Shown piece after piece: positions 10,844-23,811 of a stretch of DNA of 35,677 nucleotides (its first letter is position 1; each line of letters starts with the position of its first letter). Origin of the DNA: a virus. The position numbers and the translations under genes were made by a program. The stretch covers positions 1 through 35,677 of the IMG/VR virus record IMGVR_UViG_3300028800_000054. One strand, given 5' to 3'. A model generated the notes under the pieces. That model had not been told where the DNA came from, ran no database searches, and was given only the letters and a program-made list of their open reading frames with translations.

Positions 10844-11145
10844 GATTTTTCCTTCATTTTACGATTAACTTCTTTCCTTATTGTATTAAACAAATTTTTC
10901 ATTATTTCATCTTTATCGTCAGTGATCTTTGCGCAAAGAAATAAATGGCTCAATAGTTCACGATTAAACATGACTAGAATAGAGGTAAACAAATCAAAAA
11001 TATGCTGTAATTCTGTAAAGCTATCTTTCTCTCTGGCAAATGGATCAAAGAATCCATCAATTAATTTTTGAATTATTTCTTCTTTTACTTCTTTTTGTTT
11101 TTCATTAAAAAAATGGCCGCTTTCAGATCTTGGTATTCCTGTCAT
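10840..11145 (-). CDS. Hypothetical helical protein, 101 aa
   Basis: It starts inside the last codons of the methyltransferase (23-base overlap) and ends with a 4-base overlap onto the next gene. The composition is charged with hydrophobic heptads (EEIIQKLIDGFFDPF, then LQHIFDLFTSILVMFNRELL) and a basic tail, suggesting a helical bundle. Similar in style to the 105-residue protein at 12385. No recognisable family. Confidence 0.5.
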   Translation of the reverse strand: MTGIPRSESGHFFNEKQKEVKEEIIQKLIDGFFDPFAREKDSFTELQHIFDLFTSILVMFNRELLSHLFLCAKITDDKDEIMKNLFNTIRKEVNRKMKEKS

Positions 11146-12046
11146 TGTTTTTTTTCTCTATGTCGTAAATTATTTTCATCAGAGGATAAACTACTTGCGG
11201 AACGATTGCATTTCCTAAGGCTTTATTTCGATCCACCCCATTGGGTAGCCCATCATCCACTCCAGGAATTGGGGGTTGATCTTTTTCCCAACCAAATAAG
11301 GTGTCATGTGCGATAGTCTCTGTGGAAGGCTGCGGCCATTCGGATCGCTCGGGGATGGATTCATTATTCTTTGTTCTTTTATTGCATTCCACATTGTTGG
11401 TGTCGGTAGTAGATTCAAGCCAATTTTGAGCATTAAAAGTCGTCCAAGACTGAGGCTGGCATTGTGGCCATTCTGATTGTATCGACGCAATGTCCCATTG
11501 CCTGTCATCTTGTAACGGTCGTTTTGGCCAAGTATAGCTCCCATCGTGGCATCGGATGCCGTAAGCGTGGGCAACAATCCATATCCTTTCTCTTTTGTGG
11601 GGCGCGCCGACTGCGCTAGCCGGAATAAGATACGCCCGCCAGGCGTAGCCTTCTCTTTCCAAATCTTTAAGGATGGAGTCAAGGTGGGGAATAATTCCAG
11701 GCACATTTTCGAGAATGACCCAAGTGGGTCGGCATTCCTTGATGACCCGCAACGTGTCGGGCCACAAATATCGTTCATCAGCAAATCCCTTTTGCTTACC
11801 AGCTACACTAAATGGCTGACATGGAAAACCAGCCGTTATCAAATCCACTTTACCAAAGTGGTGCATCGTTACAATATTGTCAAAAATAAATGTATCAGGC
11901 CAATGTTTTTTTAATACCTCTCGACAGAATGGATCACGCTCGCAAAAAGCTTCTGTTTCAAATCCAGCCCATCGACCGGCTAATGAGAACCCACCGATGC
12001 CAGAAAAAAGATCTAGCATTTTTAATTTATTTCTTGGTGTATTCAT
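11123..12046 (-). CDS. DNA cytosine-5 methyltransferase, 307 aa
   Basis: This enzyme transfers a methyl group from S-adenosylmethionine to C5 of cytosine. All landmark motifs are present: I (LDLFSGIGGFSLAG, residues 11-24), IV with the catalytic Cys (GFPCQPFS, Cys76), VI (ENV, 113-115), VIII (KRERIWIVA, 151-159), and IX/X (GLPNGVDRNKALGNAIVPQV). The target-recognition region between VIII and IX is about 95 residues. The length fits a complete phage enzyme. It probably protects phage DNA from host restriction. A second, conserved reading frame lies inside its 3' two thirds (11215-11778). Confidence 0.93.
   Translation of the reverse strand: MNTPRNKLKMLDLFSGIGGFSLAGRWAGFETEAFCERDPFCREVLKKHWPDTFIFDNIVTMHHFGKVDLITAGFPCQPFSVAGKQKGFADERYLWPDTLRVIKECRPTWVILENVPGIIPHLDSILKDLEREGYAWRAYLIPASAVGAPHKRERIWIVAHAYGIRCHDGSYTWPKRPLQDDRQWDIASIQSEWPQCQPQSWTTFNAQNWLESTTDTNNVECNKRTKNNESIPERSEWPQPSTETIAHDTLFGWEKDQPPIPGVDDGLPNGVDRNKALGNAIVPQVVYPLMKIIYDIEKKNNDRNTKI
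11215..11778 (-). CDS. Overlapping gene inside methyltransferase, 'MGFPxGW' family, 187 aa
   Basis: This frame lies entirely inside the methyltransferase gene, offset by +1. It stays open for 187 codons from an ATG at 11778 that has its own AAGGGA site seven bases upstream. The product has the features of a protein family that accompanies phage cytosine methyltransferases: DPLGSFSKMCL near the N-terminus, GYGLLPTLTASDA, LLPTPTMWNA, and the closing KINPQFLEWMMGYPMGW (family form LNPxFVEWLMGFPxGW). The same bases that give WMMGYPMGW here give the motif-IX text DDGLPNGVDR in the enzyme. A +1 frameshift fusion is also possible. The function is unknown. Confidence 0.65.
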   Translation of the reverse strand: MNDICGPTRCGSSRNADPLGSFSKMCLELFPTLTPSLKIWKEKATPGGRILFRLAQSARPTKEKGYGLLPTLTASDATMGAILGQNDRYKMTGNGTLRRYNQNGHNASLSLGRLLMLKIGLNLLPTPTMWNAIKEQRIMNPSPSDPNGRSLPQRLSHMTPYLVGKKINPQFLEWMMGYPMGWIEIKP

Positions 12047-15731: not shown

Positions 15732-16252
15732 TATTTTTTTCCTTCTTTGTTTTTTTCTAGGAGTTGTTGAACTAATTCATCTAAGCCTTGCAAAACGTAT
15801 TGCATATTTTTTTGTGCTTCGGGAATATTTTCTTTTTCATTTCTAATAGCAAAAACCAGAGTGGTTAGCATTGCGGCTGACATCATATCAATATGGGTAA
15901 TTAATACTTGATAGGATTCGCCATTCAATGAATTAGCTAAAAAATATTTGGCACGCATAATTGATAATTTCGATTTCTCGTAGCGCTGATCTTCGGTCAT
16001 GTCTTTAGCATATTCTCTAGTAAAAGAGTCTTCTTTCTTTTCTGGATCTGGTTTACCCATGAACAATGTTTCCTTGGCATAAAATATAGCGATTATGGCC
16101 GATATAATTATCGACACTACTAGAACAAGTATTACTGGCATCGGCAAAATGTCGGTGGAAATAATGGACGGCAAGAGTGTACCCGTCAAAATTAGCAACA
16201 ACAAGAAAATTCCTGATCCCATTAGAAAATACTTTAATTCTTTTTTGTTCAT
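15731..16252 (-). CDS. Two-TM inner-membrane protein with cytosolic domain, 173 aa
   Basis: Two hydrophobic segments (FLMGSGIFLLLLILTGTLL and MPVILVLVVSIIISAIIAIF) in the first 60 residues form a membrane hairpin. The remaining 110 residues are charged and helical, with one more weakly hydrophobic stretch (MMSAAMLTTLVFAI). The start overlaps the stop of the SPFH lipoprotein gene by four bases (ATGA) and no ribosome site is evident, so the two proteins are translationally coupled and probably act together. Confidence 0.6.
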   Translation of the reverse strand: MNKKELKYFLMGSGIFLLLLILTGTLLPSIISTDILPMPVILVLVVSIIISAIIAIFYAKETLFMGKPDPEKKEDSFTREYAKDMTEDQRYEKSKLSIMRAKYFLANSLNGESYQVLITHIDMMSAAMLTTLVFAIRNEKENIPEAQKNMQYVLQGLDELVQQLLEKNKEGKK

Positions 16253-17100
16253 TGAGTATTACCCGATATATTAACAAAAGGAATTGCCCCAGTGCCGGTC
16301 ATGGTTGGAAGCTGGCCGTTCCATTTCAATATCGCTTGATACGATACAAATTCTTTTGTCAGGGAATCAGCCAGAATCTTATTTGCTTTCGCTTGCGATT
16401 CTGCATTGATTAGAATTTGTTTTCCTTTGGCTTCCGCTTCAACAATAGTCTTTTGTGCTTCGGCGCGAGCGGTTGCAACTTCGTTCTCAACCTTCATCGC
16501 ATTTTGTGAAGCCTGTATCTTGGAATTAATCGAGTTGATAACCGTATCCGGTAATTCAAACGAACCCACCAAATAAATCTTATCTACTTCGATGCCATTC
16601 TCGAATGCTTCTTTCTTAACAATGGAATTTACTTTCTGGATGAACACTTCTTTTTGTGCGCCATAGATTTGCTCTACTGTCATGGTGCTAGCTACTTCGT
16701 TCATTGCATCGCGTACCATGTTATGAAGGAATGTATTGGTAATCTCATCTATTCCCAGGCGATACTTAGTAAATACTTTGACAACATTGTCAGGTTGTAT
16801 ACTGTAAGTAATCCCAGCGTCAGTACGAATAGATAAGCCCTCAGACGTTTGCATCGTGATGGCTTGTTCATCTTTCCAAGAGTAGTTTTGCAAAAAAGTA
16901 GGAAACAAATAAAGTTCGGAATTCCAACCAAGGTAATAGCGACCAACACCCACAGACTGTTCTGCAACACCTTTATCGCTTCCGTATAAATTAACAATGA
17001 CACCTCGATAGCCCGCTGGCACTTTGCTGCAACCGTTTAAACCCATACATATTGATGCAATAATACTTCCGGTTAATAATGCACTCTTATAAACTTTCAT
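16249..17100 (-). CDS. SPFH/Band-7 (prohibitin-like) lipoprotein, 283 aa
   Basis: An N-terminal lipoprotein signal ends in LNGC (Cys24), with Ser at +2. The mature part is an SPFH domain: KVPAGYRGVIVNLYGSDKG, then a long middle region (TDAGITYSIQPDNVVKVF, VASTMTVEQIYGAQKEVF) and a C-terminal Ala/Glu/Lys-rich coiled coil (VENEVATARAEAQKTIVEAE). The layout matches bacterial prohibitin- and HflK/HflC-type proteins, which form ring scaffolds and in bacteria often modulate FtsH protease or membrane microdomains. GGGA precedes the ATG. Because it is a lipoprotein, it sits on the outer face of the membrane, unlike HflK/C, which use a TM anchor. Role in phage life: unproven. Confidence 0.8.
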   Translation of the reverse strand: MKVYKSALLTGSIIASICMGLNGCSKVPAGYRGVIVNLYGSDKGVAEQSVGVGRYYLGWNSELYLFPTFLQNYSWKDEQAITMQTSEGLSIRTDAGITYSIQPDNVVKVFTKYRLGIDEITNTFLHNMVRDAMNEVASTMTVEQIYGAQKEVFIQKVNSIVKKEAFENGIEVDKIYLVGSFELPDTVINSINSKIQASQNAMKVENEVATARAEAQKTIVEAEAKGKQILINAESQAKANKILADSLTKEFVSYQAILKWNGQLPTMTGTGAIPFVNISGNTQ

Positions 17101-17415
17101 TTAATGATTCCCTATTTTAGTATCCAAACCGTCTTTAACAACATGTAAAAAATGTTCTTTCATTTTTTCATATGGGGCTGGTAGCTGTGTAACACTTTCA
17201 TACATTGAAGCAGCCCATCGAACAAGATTACCGTCTACTGTTCCGATTGACATAAAAAATATTGAAAGAAAAGTATCGAGTGGCAAATCTTTATGAATTA
17301 ACAACTCGTCTGCAACTAACTTAAGAAATTTTCCATAGGCTTTTCTGGCTATGCGATCAATGATTTGATGCATTTCTTTGTCACTTAATACAATACCTTT
17401 TGCTTCTTTCTTCAT
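17101..17415 (-). CDS. Hypothetical helical protein, 104 aa
   Basis: I chose the ATG at 17415, with GGAAG seven bases upstream and a 4-base overlap with the gene before. The helices include KEMHQIIDRIARKAYGKFLK and DTFLSIFFMSIGTVDGNLV. No membrane segment, signal or enzyme motif. It lies directly before the SPFH gene, with the stop abutting its start. No family recognised. Confidence 0.5.
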   Translation of the reverse strand: MKKEAKGIVLSDKEMHQIIDRIARKAYGKFLKLVADELLIHKDLPLDTFLSIFFMSIGTVDGNLVRWAASMYESVTQLPAPYEKMKEHFLHVVKDGLDTKIGNH

Positions 17416-17798
17416 TCTATTACTTCCCAATCCATAGCGATCATGCAAGGAAATGTTGGTAAGAAATTGGACTTTTCATTTTTGAATCGGAAAATCATAT
17501 TGGTTTCTTTGTCCAGCACTAAATAGCACGTGTCTGGCCATGATTTTAATTTTATGGCTTTTCCCAAGGCGAGTTGTTCACATGCACTATGGAAACGATA
17601 AAGCACATTTTCATTTTCTCCAATTATTACCCAGTCATCGGATAATAAAATAGAATTGTCATAAGAAAAGGGTTCGCCATAATGCAAATAACTTTGTATT
17701 TCTTCATTAATAAACTGAATAAATAAGCCTTCGTTCCATTCCTGTCGTCTGACTTTTTTCCCAGCAATTAATTCTGGCCATATTTCTTTAAAATCCAT
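17412..17798 (-). CDS. Tandem DUF2829 (Tad2-like) protein, 128 aa
   Basis: The protein looks like two copies of one about-60-residue fold. Copy 1 begins MDFKEIWPELIAGKKVRRQEW and ends LLSDDWVII; copy 2 begins ACEQLALGKAIKLKSWPDTCY and ends MIAMDWEVIE. Both have the order 'helix-GK-x-(R/K)-x-W ... DW-x-(V/I)' that marks DUF2829, the family of the anti-Thoeris protein Tad2, which sequesters the signalling nucleotide made by the Thoeris defence. A second, single-domain relative is at 28573-28821. Tandem fusion would be unusual. The domain assignment is by motif only. Confidence 0.5.
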   Translation of the reverse strand: MDFKEIWPELIAGKKVRRQEWNEGLFIQFINEEIQSYLHYGEPFSYDNSILLSDDWVIIGENENVLYRFHSACEQLALGKAIKLKSWPDTCYLVLDKETNMIFRFKNEKSNFLPTFPCMIAMDWEVIE

Positions 17799-17988: not shown

Positions 17989-18027
17989 TTTTTACCTTAA
18001 TTTGGTGGCAATCGGGCTGAAATGCCA

Positions 18028-18258
18028 TTAATCCTTTACCACCACACTTAGATTTTGTGGTTTAATCGCTTCTTCTGCATTGTCATATAAATAACTGGCA
18101 TTAATAAGCATTTTCTTATTGGGATACATTACCTGATATTTTCTAGCTTCTTCTATTGATGTGAAAGAAATGGAGAACCAGAAATCTTTATCTTTAACAT
18201 TTACACAGTAAATGGTTCTTTTTAGTCTGTCGGTAAAACTTTCTTTTGATAGATCCAT
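18028..18258 (-). CDS. Hypothetical protein, 76 aa
   Basis: The first gene downstream of the 400-base gene-free stretch. It starts four bases downstream of a copy of the repeated AATTATGAGATAAG sequence, whose GAGATAAGAGAG run could also serve as its ribosome site. The sequence has a beta-rich middle (FWFSISFTSIEEARKYQ) and ends NLSVVVKD. If the upstream RNA is a switch, this gene is its most direct target. No family recognised. Confidence 0.5.
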   Translation of the reverse strand: MDLSKESFTDRLKRTIYCVNVKDKDFWFSISFTSIEEARKYQVMYPNKKMLINASYLYDNAEEAIKPQNLSVVVKD

Positions 18259-18262
18259 CTCT

Positions 18263-18542
18263 CTTATCTCATAATTGGTGCGTCCGCCGAGAGTTCCCAG
18301 CTCGGACAGCCGCTTGCACTGGCTACTCTCCCGTCACGACTTTCGGTTTGAGCAGGTTAAAAGTCGATAGTATACCTTTGCGTTTCCTACACGCCGCGAT
18401 TGCCATAATTCTTTGAGATAAGGCCAGAATTGCACTGACTCCAGTTTTGCTGAACAAGGCACTTAGCCAAGGTATCCACTGGGGAGAAGGCTCAGCTACG
18501 TTGCTTCCGCGTGTCACTGTCCACGCCGCTTATCTCATAATT
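18263..18542 (-). ncRNA. Candidate structured RNA bounded by 14-bp direct repeats
   Basis: Read on the minus strand, the segment begins and ends with AATTATGAGATAAG (18529-18542 and 18263-18276). Near its middle (18406-18421) lies a near-complementary copy (CTTATCTCA, then AATT), which can pair with either end copy, so two long stems exclude each other. Local hairpins include a 7-bp stem CGACTTT/AAAGTCG (18337-18366), CCGAG/CTCGG (18287-18305), GCGTG/CACGC (18509-18526) and AGCC/GGCT (18308-18324). I could not match it to tmRNA, RNase P RNA, 6S or a group I or II intron core. It could be a regulatory leader, a trans-acting RNA or a mobile insertion. Confidence 0.45.
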
Positions 18543-18546
18543 TATT

Positions 18547-18569
18547 GGGGCTGGTAATTAATCAGCCCC
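18547..18569 (-). other. GC-rich hairpin downstream of the ssDNA-binding gene
   Basis: GGGGCTG and CAGCCCC pair over 7 bp with a 9-base AT-rich loop. No T-run follows on either strand, so it is not a standard intrinsic terminator. It stands between the replication/recombination genes and the candidate RNA and may be an mRNA 3' barrier, a processing site or part of the RNA's own fold. Confidence 0.45.
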
Positions 18570-18656
18570 GCACTAACAGTTGACCCCAGATCTTCGCAAT
18601 AGCTGGCGTATTGAACGGGTTGCTGGCCATCAGTCGTTTAGTTACTGTGCACCCAT

Positions 18657-19142
18657 TTAGAACGGCAAATCATCATTCAGGTCATTGCTACCGGAAACAG
18701 CTTCATACTTGACTGCACCCTTGTCTGTCAAGACATAATCTTCAACAACATTCTTATCGGGGTATTTTGAACCCATTGGCTTGCCATTGAGTTTCTCTAC
18801 TGGAATGATCTGGCCACGCTGAATAGAAATTCTAAACCGTCCGGAATAACCCCCCAACTCTTCGGGTAATTCACCCCGTTTGTAGTATTCCTGTAAGCCA
18901 GTCGCATCACAAAAATGTTTTACCTTCCTGATATTAAGCGGCACAGTGGAGAATACTAAGTTATCAAACATGGTATGCACTTTCCCATTGCGATCCCAGA
19001 ACTTAATGTTTAGTTCCGCCATCTGGTTTCCGGCATAAGATGTCTTTGGTTTTGATCTTATTACTTCAAAGTCATATTCACCATCTTCCACTAGGTCAGT
19101 GGCATTTAACTCTTCATCACTCATGGATGGAAATTTATACAT
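18657..19142 (-). CDS. ssDNA-binding/recombination protein with SSB-like C-tail (DUF669-like), 161 aa
   Basis: The protein has an OB-like, beta-rich body (LVEDGEYDFEVIRSKPKTSY, MAELNIKFWDRNGK, FCDATGLQEYYKRGELP) like the DUF669-type proteins found next to phage recombination genes. It ends in NDLNDDLPF, close to the acidic 'DDDIPF' tip by which SSB proteins recruit host repair and replication factors. The start touches the stop of the ATPase gene, a common pairing for Sak4-type ATPases and their ssDNA-binding partner. Role: coating ssDNA during replication or recombination. Confidence 0.7.
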   Translation of the reverse strand: MYKFPSMSDEELNATDLVEDGEYDFEVIRSKPKTSYAGNQMAELNIKFWDRNGKVHTMFDNLVFSTVPLNIRKVKHFCDATGLQEYYKRGELPEELGGYSGRFRISIQRGQIIPVEKLNGKPMGSKYPDKNVVEDYVLTDKGAVKYEAVSGSNDLNDDLPF

Positions 19143-20002
19143 TATGCAGCTTCCCCTTGTACGGTTGATTTAAAGTAGTTAATACATTTTTGAATATGTT
19201 CGCCGGAAGTAAAACTCCAGTCTTCGACACTTTCCTTCTTTAACATTTTCTCTACCATGTCTTGCTCGACATGTAAAAGTTCTATCAGGTGTTTTATTTC
19301 CTTGATCTGTTCTGGACTTGCAAGCACTACTGACTGGCAATCTTTCTCCAGTATTTCTCGACCATAGCGTTCGCATATTTCTTCATAGGTAAAAGGAAAT
19401 GTTTCATCTTCTTTAAAGCCTTCCAGCCTTGTACCGCGAATCAATGCCGCACGTTCCTTGCCACGTTTCTGTATTTCCAGAATAAGGTCAAACATGTAGT
19501 CCATTTTCTTGTAGCAGTCAAAGGTCTGGCCAAGTAAAACCATTTCTTTACCATTCATTTGGTATTCATTCTTGGCATGGGATGTGACAATCACATTCAT
19601 GTCTAGCCTCAGTAATAAGCTATATAAGCTTTTCATCTTTCTACCAGCCAGTGCGACATGTTTGCCATACTCAGTACCAACCATGGCTGCGCATTTGTCC
19701 ACCAGGTCATCATAGAGTAATGTCATGGGGTCAATGATTAAAGTCTTGTACTCGTGTTGTTCTGTCAGTAGGGTTTTTATTTCGGCGATGACTTCGTCAA
19801 AGTCAGACGTCTGGAATATCGCGCCACCACCTTTGTTTAACATCTTGGTATACTTATCATTCTCAGCACCGCGCTCGGTATCAATGAGATAAGGTTTGGG
19901 GAACTGGATTGCCGCTGTAGTTTTACCAACCTTGGCATTCCCATAAAAGAATGCCTTAAGTCGTTTCTGTATTTGTTCTGGTTTCTTTGCTCGTAAAGCC
20001 AT
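19142..20002 (-). CDS. Sak4/RecA-like phage ATPase, 286 aa
   Basis: A Walker A loop, GNAKVGKTT (residues 21-29), and a Walker B strand, YKTLIIDPMTLLYDD, frame a RecA-like P-loop core; NVIVTSHAKNEYQ follows as a sensor-like strand. This is the architecture of the single-domain phage ATPases (AAA_24/Sak4) that promote single-strand annealing. The ATG at 20002 has AGGA about ten bases upstream and avoids overlap with the upstream gene; longer in-frame starts would overlap it. The C-terminal 70 residues are charged helices. It is paired with the ssDNA-binding gene next to it. Confidence 0.8.
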   Translation of the reverse strand: MALRAKKPEQIQKRLKAFFYGNAKVGKTTAAIQFPKPYLIDTERGAENDKYTKMLNKGGGAIFQTSDFDEVIAEIKTLLTEQHEYKTLIIDPMTLLYDDLVDKCAAMVGTEYGKHVALAGRKMKSLYSLLLRLDMNVIVTSHAKNEYQMNGKEMVLLGQTFDCYKKMDYMFDLILEIQKRGKERAALIRGTRLEGFKEDETFPFTYEEICERYGREILEKDCQSVVLASPEQIKEIKHLIELLHVEQDMVEKMLKKESVEDWSFTSGEHIQKCINYFKSTVQGEAA

Positions 20003-20024
20003 GGTATGTATCCTCAAGTATAAT

Positions 20025-20429
20025 TTATCGTCTGACCCAGTAGGTTTCGTTGTTGTCTCTATGTCGGCATGAATACATGCCAGCTTCTTCCATTGCTTCT
20101 CGGTAGACAACGGGACATTCTTCTTCAAGTAATTGTTGAATATGGGGCAATAGTTCCAGAAAGAGGGCATGCGCAGCCATGCCGCCACCACTTCCATTCC
20201 CACACACTTCTTCATACTCGGAAGCGGGAACTAAATGTGACAACAATAAGTTTTTGTCCCACGTTGGGAATAATCTGGCATCGACAGAATACGAACCATC
20301 TTGGTAGACACCATGTTCCCGTATTAGGGAATGGAGTAAAGAGGTGAGAGCTTTTCCATGCATGACCAAGATTCCTTCCGTGGTATCTTGCTTACTTAAT
20401 ACTAAATGTGTAATAGTTCTATCATTCAT
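20025..20429 (-). CDS. Hypothetical protein, 134 aa
   Basis: The ATG at 20429 has GGAG nine bases upstream; an earlier in-frame start at 20474 would run through the promoter. The protein is globular, acidic in the middle (ASEYEEVCGNGSGGGMAAH) with a His/Cys-containing end (MYSCRHRDNNETYWVRR). It is the first gene after the promoter at 20446-20474 and precedes the ATPase. No family recognised. Confidence 0.5.
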   Translation of the reverse strand: MNDRTITHLVLSKQDTTEGILVMHGKALTSLLHSLIREHGVYQDGSYSVDARLFPTWDKNLLLSHLVPASEYEEVCGNGSGGGMAAHALFLELLPHIQQLLEEECPVVYREAMEEAGMYSCRHRDNNETYWVRR

Positions 20430-23662: not shown

Positions 23663-23733
23663 TGCCCACAAAAGGAATCGAACCTTTAGTTATTGATTAC
23701 GAATCAATTGTATTACCATTATACGATGCGGGC
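23663..23733 (-). tRNA. tRNA-Thr (anticodon CGU)
   Basis: The minus strand folds as a full cloverleaf: acceptor GCCCGCA/TGTGGGC, D stem GTAT/ATAC, anticodon stem ATTGA/TCAAT with loop TTCGTAA (anticodon CGU, reading ACG), T stem AAAGG/CCTTT with loop TTCGATT, discriminator A. No CCA is encoded. It is six bases from a second threonine tRNA. Both read leftward. Confidence 0.85.
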
Positions 23734-23738
23734 GTGAA

Positions 23739-23811
23739 TGCCCAAAATAGGAATCGAACCTACAACCTTCGCATTACAAATGCGCTGCTCTACCAATTGA
23801 GCTACTCGGGC
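23739..23811 (-). tRNA. tRNA-Thr (anticodon UGU)
   Basis: Cloverleaf on the minus strand: acceptor GCCCGAG/TTTGGGC (with wobble pairs), D stem GCTC/GAGC, anticodon arm with loop TTTGTAA (anticodon UGU, reading ACA), T stem GTAGG/CCTAT with loop TTCGATT, discriminator A. No CCA encoded. The upstream Cys-rich gene uses the TAG at tRNA positions 8-10 as its stop, so mRNA and tRNA share a transcript that must be processed. Confidence 0.9.

Follow-up and report, generated by a model that had tools for sequence, protein, structure and literature searches.

A candidate family of tRNA-like phage RNAs with variable inserts, encoded in a gene-free gap beside a DUF669 gene

Introduction

In tmRNA, a large structured insert replaces the anticodon arm of a tRNA-like domain. 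Bacterial Y RNAs of the YrlA type are non-coding RNAs that mimic tRNA, and they have been reported from phages too. Phage T4 encodes two small stable RNAs next to its tRNA genes, RNAC and RNAD (139 and 119 nt), whose roles are unknown (PMC3014915, PMC9697503).

Here we analyzed a stretch of 35,677 nt of viral DNA (IMG/VR record IMGVR_UViG_3300028800_000054), called the window below, and found that a gene-free gap on its minus strand contains a unit that recurs in about 100 loci. Like tmRNA, the units share an acceptor stem, a D region, a T-arm and an insert at the position of the anticodon arm; they differ in that their inserts are hypervariable and no tag frame is shown. With bacterial tRNA-Sec they have the 8-bp acceptor and the 5-bp T-stem in common, but D-arm and loops are different, and an insert takes the place of the UCA anticodon arm; one unit gave a sub-threshold match to tRNA-Sec in Rfam (19.3 bits, cut-off 47; E 0.99). 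As to YrlA, the Rfam library, which may lack a YrlA model, gave no gathering-score match in the window or in 28 relatives.

Judged by context, T4 RNAC and RNAD are the nearest known kind: they too are small stable phage RNAs adjoining tRNA genes, and toward its 3' end RNAC has a T-arm (CCGGG-TTCGAAT-CCCGG). However, the T4 RNAs lack the GACAGUGA loop and a perfect 8-bp acceptor, and their T-loop is canonical. The T4 region (L334) had no match with model R1 (E up to 0.1) or model R2 (E up to 10). In this region, RNAC (1409-1547) shows a canonical T-arm, CCGGGTTCGAATCCCGG, near the 3' end and an imperfect acceptor-like pairing; RNAD ends with GGCGCACC, followed by A.

Results

The gap and its repeats

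The span from 18259 to 18656 is free of ORFs apart from one mechanical 64-aa GTG ORF at 18323-18517, and its GC content is 0.47-0.51 compared with 0.30-0.40 on the downstream side. This agrees with the initial annotation, which had described a GC-richer, gene-free gap of about 400 bases, bounded by identical 14-bp repeats and with a complement in its middle. Both elements are indeed present: on the minus strand AATTATGAGATAAG occurs in two exact copies (18263-18276 and 18529-18542) and nowhere else in the window, and a perfect 9-nt complement, CTTATCTCA (minus strand), occupies 18414-18422 in the interval between the two. The protein of the 64-aa ORF has no credible phage match. Folding of single sequences revealed no excess stability, neither for the whole stretch (MFE z-score +0.38 for the minus and +1.28 for the plus strand) nor for unit 1 alone (-0.86). 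Folding alone is silent; the structure of the unit became visible only by comparison with relatives.

Relatives of the unit

The DUF669 gene next to the gap found no relatives when used as bait in viral contigs, and therefore DNA patterns were used. An 18-mer from the gap, searched across 2.9 million viral contigs, identified three contigs (L003, L004, L005) that carry the same block with repeat and complement replaced together: the acceptor strands are GAGATAAG/CTTATCTC in the window, GAGACGCT/AGCGTCTC in L004 and GGAAGTCG/CGACTTCC in L005 and its near-copy L003. L004 and L005 contain several units in tandem, some with an ACCA end, and the L004 array adjoins a tRNA-Tyr gene. With a 16-mer from the conserved hairpin, 104 stretches were matched, and the full architecture was present in 58 of 75 distinct CGGC-linked matches (about 2 with shuffled acceptor letters). 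When the search was anchored on the T-arm only, without any D-arm information, a full 8-bp acceptor partner was found upstream in 73 of 122 distinct sites (5 with shuffling); in these units the D-arm stem varies in a compensatory manner (GCGTT/AACGC, GCGCG/CGCGC and GCATG/CATGC, among others) while the loop stays GACAG[TC]GA. A single descriptor is passed by 106 units in about 100 loci.

The window contains one complete unit, with the following parts:

18415-18536, minus strand: unit 1, complete tRNA-like RNA of 122 nt (model R2 match; architecture common to about 100 loci)
18537-18540, minus strand: TTAT leader directly 5' of the stem (flank profile of 105 units)
18529-18536, minus strand: 5' strand of the acceptor-like stem, GAGATAAG (8 of 8 pairs with 18415-18422; double-sided changes in all 8 across relatives)
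18509-18526, minus strand: D-arm-like hairpin GCGTG-GACAGTGA-CACGC (stem covaries, loop GACAG[TC]GA)
18440-18508, minus strand: insert (payload) of 69 nt, class 'type 1' (core nearly invariant in the window, L003, L004, L043 and L208)
18423-18439, minus strand: T-arm-like hairpin GTCAG-TGCAATT-CTGGC (4 of 5 pairs covary; loop-closing G-C pair invariant)
18415-18422, minus strand: 3' strand of the acceptor-like stem, CTTATCTC, followed by a discriminator-like A (complementarity and covariation)

In unit 1 the 8-bp acceptor-like stem is thus followed by a 2-nt linker, the 5-bp D-arm-like hairpin with the loop GACAGUGA, the insert and, stacked on the acceptor, a 5-bp T-arm with the loop UGCAAUU. 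Read against the alignment of relatives, the repeat and its 'middle complement' are the two predicted acceptor strands plus the TTAT leader. The bounds of the feature should better be set at 18415-18536 (minus strand), with a damaged second unit from 18404 onward.

This layout bears on two earlier proposals. A target duplication left by a small insertion is not supported, because the repeat consists of the leader TTAT and the structural strand GAGATAAG, and its sequence differs from phage to phage in step with its pairing partner. The second proposal, a cis-acting bistable switch, attenuator or processing element of the early operon, now seems improbable to us. The element is intergenic, 142 of 186 flanking ORFs are co-directional with the units, and the alternative pairing is possible within the window itself; yet in all homologues the partner of the center is the upstream copy. 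Only 5 of 100 units have a second acceptor copy downstream; apart from the window, in the other four, this copy is simply where a further unit starts. Mutually exclusive pairing, as expected of a riboswitch or attenuator, is therefore not conserved. Moreover, the units occupy varied genomic places and form arrays with as many as five members, which may extend over both strands, and their structure is closed end to end, as in a free RNA.

Several variants and look-alikes were noted in these searches. L263, L297, L105 (1660-1756) and L253 contain variant units with a D-loop GTTTAG... and an unchanged T-arm, i.e. a second D-loop type. In L232, L269, L284 and L317 the T-arm AGCAGGTGCAATTCCTGC is followed by 3' strands resembling CTGAGTTC, with no 8-bp partner within 330 nt; these may be units whose inserts are longer or whose parts are arranged differently. 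Adjoining tRNA-like hairpin units that lack the GACAGUGA loop, for example GGCTCTCGATG...GATGTAGAGAGCCACCA, occur in L004 (5700-7200) and L005 (2690-2880; also L003 and L337), their pattern GATGTAGARAGCCACCA being present in 4 contigs, and they possibly form a sister family with encoded CCA. Pattern matches in tail-gene-like sequence (GTATGCGATCAAATCC...) and in L328-L332 proved unrelated to the units.

Covariation of the units

For the covariation analysis, 60 distinct units were aligned without gaps after removal of the inserts, giving the structure acceptor (8)-CG-D-arm (5, loop 8)-insert-T-arm (5, loop 7)-acceptor (8). Covariation among homologues, whose absence would have spoken against the RNA, is present: double-sided changes occur in 17 of 18 pairs, and 99.4% of the pairing cells are paired, a percentage that is inflated as acceptor and T-arm pairs also served to select the units. 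The anchored and shuffled tests are therefore the fairer evidence. Cells with double changes number 304 compared with 69 in shuffles, the covariation score is 0.807 (0.199 shuffled; at most 0.13 in slid controls), and RNAalifold recovered the identical structure unprompted. Furthermore, the covariance model R2, from which the window and every other type-1 insert had been left out, matches unit 1 with 68.9 bits (E 1.2e-17). Covariation and this held-out model together strongly support the structured minus-strand RNA first proposed for the gap.

An element acting at the DNA level, e.g. a site for recombination or packaging or a mobile cassette with inverted ends that fold by chance, is very improbable. 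Conserved ends around a variable interior, arrays, and a type-1 insert common to otherwise divergent phages would suit such an element, but the 8-bp ends vary freely and yet stay complementary in each unit, and the invariance lies in the hairpin loops, not in the ends; this is the pattern of an RNA. No recombinase common to the loci was found among the neighbor clusters.

How far the resemblance to tRNA extends differs between the parts of the unit. In the T-arm the closing G-C pair is of the tRNA type and U54, C56, A57 and A58 are present, but position 55 is G, and the D-loop is non-canonical and lacks the canonical GG. The units may resemble tRNA at the tertiary level as well, although a true tRNA elbow is not established for these two reasons. 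Few units encode CCA (ACCA in 5 of 108), and the discriminator position is A in only about half of the units. Upstream, the flank profile of 105 units at positions -4 to -1 is T 59%, T 57%, A 67% and T 65%; in the 3' flank A and then T stand at +6 and +7, and G is depleted. Such flanks would fit AU-rich processing sites.

With the tRNA covariance model (RF00005) or ARAGORN, only ordinary, separate tRNA genes were recognized and none of the units; ARAGORN -m likewise called no unit as tmRNA with a tag frame, and no tmRNA match was found in Rfam. These results weigh on the idea of a translation-related RNA, resembling tmRNA or representing an unusual tRNA in which one arm is enlarged, that acts on the ribosome or is charged with an amino acid. 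Its layout is that of tmRNA, the 8+5 bp stack of acceptor and T-stem is that of bacterial tRNA-Sec, and one insert class has an anticodon-like hairpin of 5 bp with a 7-nt loop. However, no unit, that of the window included, is called tRNA or tmRNA by ARAGORN or matches either in Rfam at gathering score, CCA is seldom encoded, and the inserts vary too much for a conserved tag frame, so that we regard this explanation as quite unlikely.

Inserts

In place of the anticodon arm (5 bp, 7-nt loop) the units carry inserts of 29-254 nt, and a look-alike of that arm is found in one class. In this class (L248 7121-7293, L324 8547-8720 and L267) the hairpin consists of a 5-bp stem and a 7-nt loop (ACGGA-TTTTAAA-TCCGT). 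Most inserts (89 of 106) have no detectable relative among the others. Nearly all end in A (104 of 108), and a helix that closes immediately 5' of the T-arm is enriched (33 inserts with at least 6 bp, compared with 8 in shuffles).

In the type-1 insert about 50 positions are nearly invariant in the five phages, and variation is confined to an internal hairpin. Over the aligned part, the portal proteins of L004 and the window share only 27% identity; the type-1 module therefore either passes from phage to phage or is under strong constraint. Its sequence suggests a candidate pseudoknot in which GCTGAGC/GTTCAGC (18496-18490 with 18455-18449) would cross CCAGT/ACTGG (18482-18478 with 18445-18441); because these strands do not vary, it lies beyond the reach of covariation. 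Across all inserts, the excess for a general pseudoknot is weak (4.8 compared with 4.3 bp). A search for antisense matches in the phage's own genome gave, among the longer matches that it covered, only the trivial self-match.

A second unit and the neighboring genes

Further features of the window are the following:

18299-18404, minus strand: unit 2, damaged, with acceptor 5' strand GGCAATCG, D-arm-like GCGT-GTAGGAA-ACGC and a degenerate T-arm
18003-18019, minus strand: 3' end of unit 2, possibly displaced, CAGCC CGATTGCC ACCA (CGATTGCC and ACCA at 18014-18003)
18263-18276, minus strand: second copy of leader and acceptor strand, directly 5' of a 76-aa ORF
18657-19142, minus strand: DUF669 protein, the upstream neighbor (Pfam PF05037, 21.4 bits; a homologue precedes the unit in other phages)
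19142-20215, minus strand: Sak4-like / AAA_24 annealing protein
17412-17798, minus strand: protein with a Tad2-like (Thoeris anti-defence 2) domain, encoded about 600 bp downstream (Pfam PF11195, 2.3e-11)

Unit 2 matches model R1 weakly (12.7 bits, E 0.13) and gave no match with R2. A perfect 9-nt complement of its 5' strand, CGATTGCC, is located beyond the 76-aa ORF; since the missing 3' strand sits past this ORF, an insertion carrying ORF 18028-18258 may have split unit 2. The second AATTATGAGATAAG copy is probably the remnant 5' end of another unit. The minus-strand block of the RNA unit also includes a member of a phage lipoprotein family (phrog_200, 16249-17100) and a DNA methyltransferase (phrog_363, 11123-12046), and two tRNA-Thr genes (CGT and TGT anticodons) lie at 23663-23811 on the minus strand amid a plus-strand region.

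Genomic context and distribution

ORFs of at least 100 aa cover 20% of the units compared with 69% of random placements. Eight units lie at most 100 bp from a same-strand tRNA gene (0.8 expected), and some phages have arrays; in L248 five units are distributed over both strands. Six phages, that of the window among them, have the unit 13-270 bp after the DUF669 gene of a Sak4-DUF669 pair, with six unrelated inserts; the Sak4 proteins of the phages sharing this locus are 52-62% identical to that of the window. In 11 of the 15 records having both, a Tad2-like gene lies on the same strand as the unit and at most 1.2 kb away (2.8 expected), although these records are not independent and the proximity partly reflects the common descent of the Sak4-DUF669 group. 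Tad2-like domains are widespread in phages. A protein partner common to most loci was not found among the neighbor clusters.

These neighborhoods are relevant to the possibility that the units are tRNA decoys, i.e. that the tRNA-like body is bait for defence nucleases that cut tRNA, or for other enzymes of tRNA, while the insert serves as a spacer or adds affinity. The tRNA-like fold with its invariant loops, the position of units among same-strand phage tRNA genes and the nearby Tad2-like genes are consistent with it; on the other hand, most inserts have no anticodon arm, the D- and T-loops are unlike those of tRNA, and there are insert classes with invariant cores, from which it follows that the insert itself matters. 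We consider such a decoy conceivable but unlikely.

Matches to the family lie almost all in uncultured phage contigs. Short (32-nt) motif queries against 50,697 phage records and 72,556 plasmids gave no convincing match, nor did blastn of the whole gap against phages and plasmids. In genome contigs (257 billion bases) we found six exact matches, four with a full unit; these contigs are possibly phage contigs. Model R1 had 2 matches, one of them weak, in 143 Legionellaceae-level genomes. Rfam, at gathering as well as lax thresholds, returned only ordinary tRNAs and chance matches; it holds no such family, in keeping with the initial annotation, which had matched no known RNA class. A literature search, with bioRxiv preprints and most subscription papers outside its reach, found no description of these RNAs.

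Discussion

Taken together, we propose, with a probability of about 0.6, that the product of the gap is a discrete non-coding phage RNA which acts in trans and belongs to a new family. What the comparison of relatives shows is a predicted tRNA-like body with a structured insert at the anticodon-arm position, phage-specific and under purifying selection within a class. This RNA family, present in about 100 uncultured phage contigs, is apparently undescribed so far; its novelty holds at the level of the RNA family, and if all tRNA-mimicking RNAs are counted as one kind, it is a variant thereof.

From these sequence data we envisage that the unit RNA would be transcribed together with the early genes and excised by the host tRNA-maturation machinery at the AU-rich flanks. 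The tRNA-like body would then stabilize the RNA and present the insert, and the RNA would act in trans. Our guess is that the insert might bind a factor of the host and, most plausibly, act as a counter-defence decoy or inhibitor; such a role would account for the fast replacement of inserts at one locus beside Tad2-like genes. Tentatively, and with clearly less confidence than in the RNA family itself, the units can be pictured as virus-specific modular effector RNAs, in which a fixed tRNA-like chassis carries exchangeable payloads that are swapped at a fixed early locus in an arms race.

The units would represent a new viral RNA class that is supported by covariation, is not in Rfam and offers a clear experimental entry point. 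They would also provide a comparative handle on an old puzzle, the purpose of the stable RNAs in the tRNA cluster of T4. If the reading of exchangeable payloads is true, phages would possess a natural tRNA scaffold for effector RNAs.
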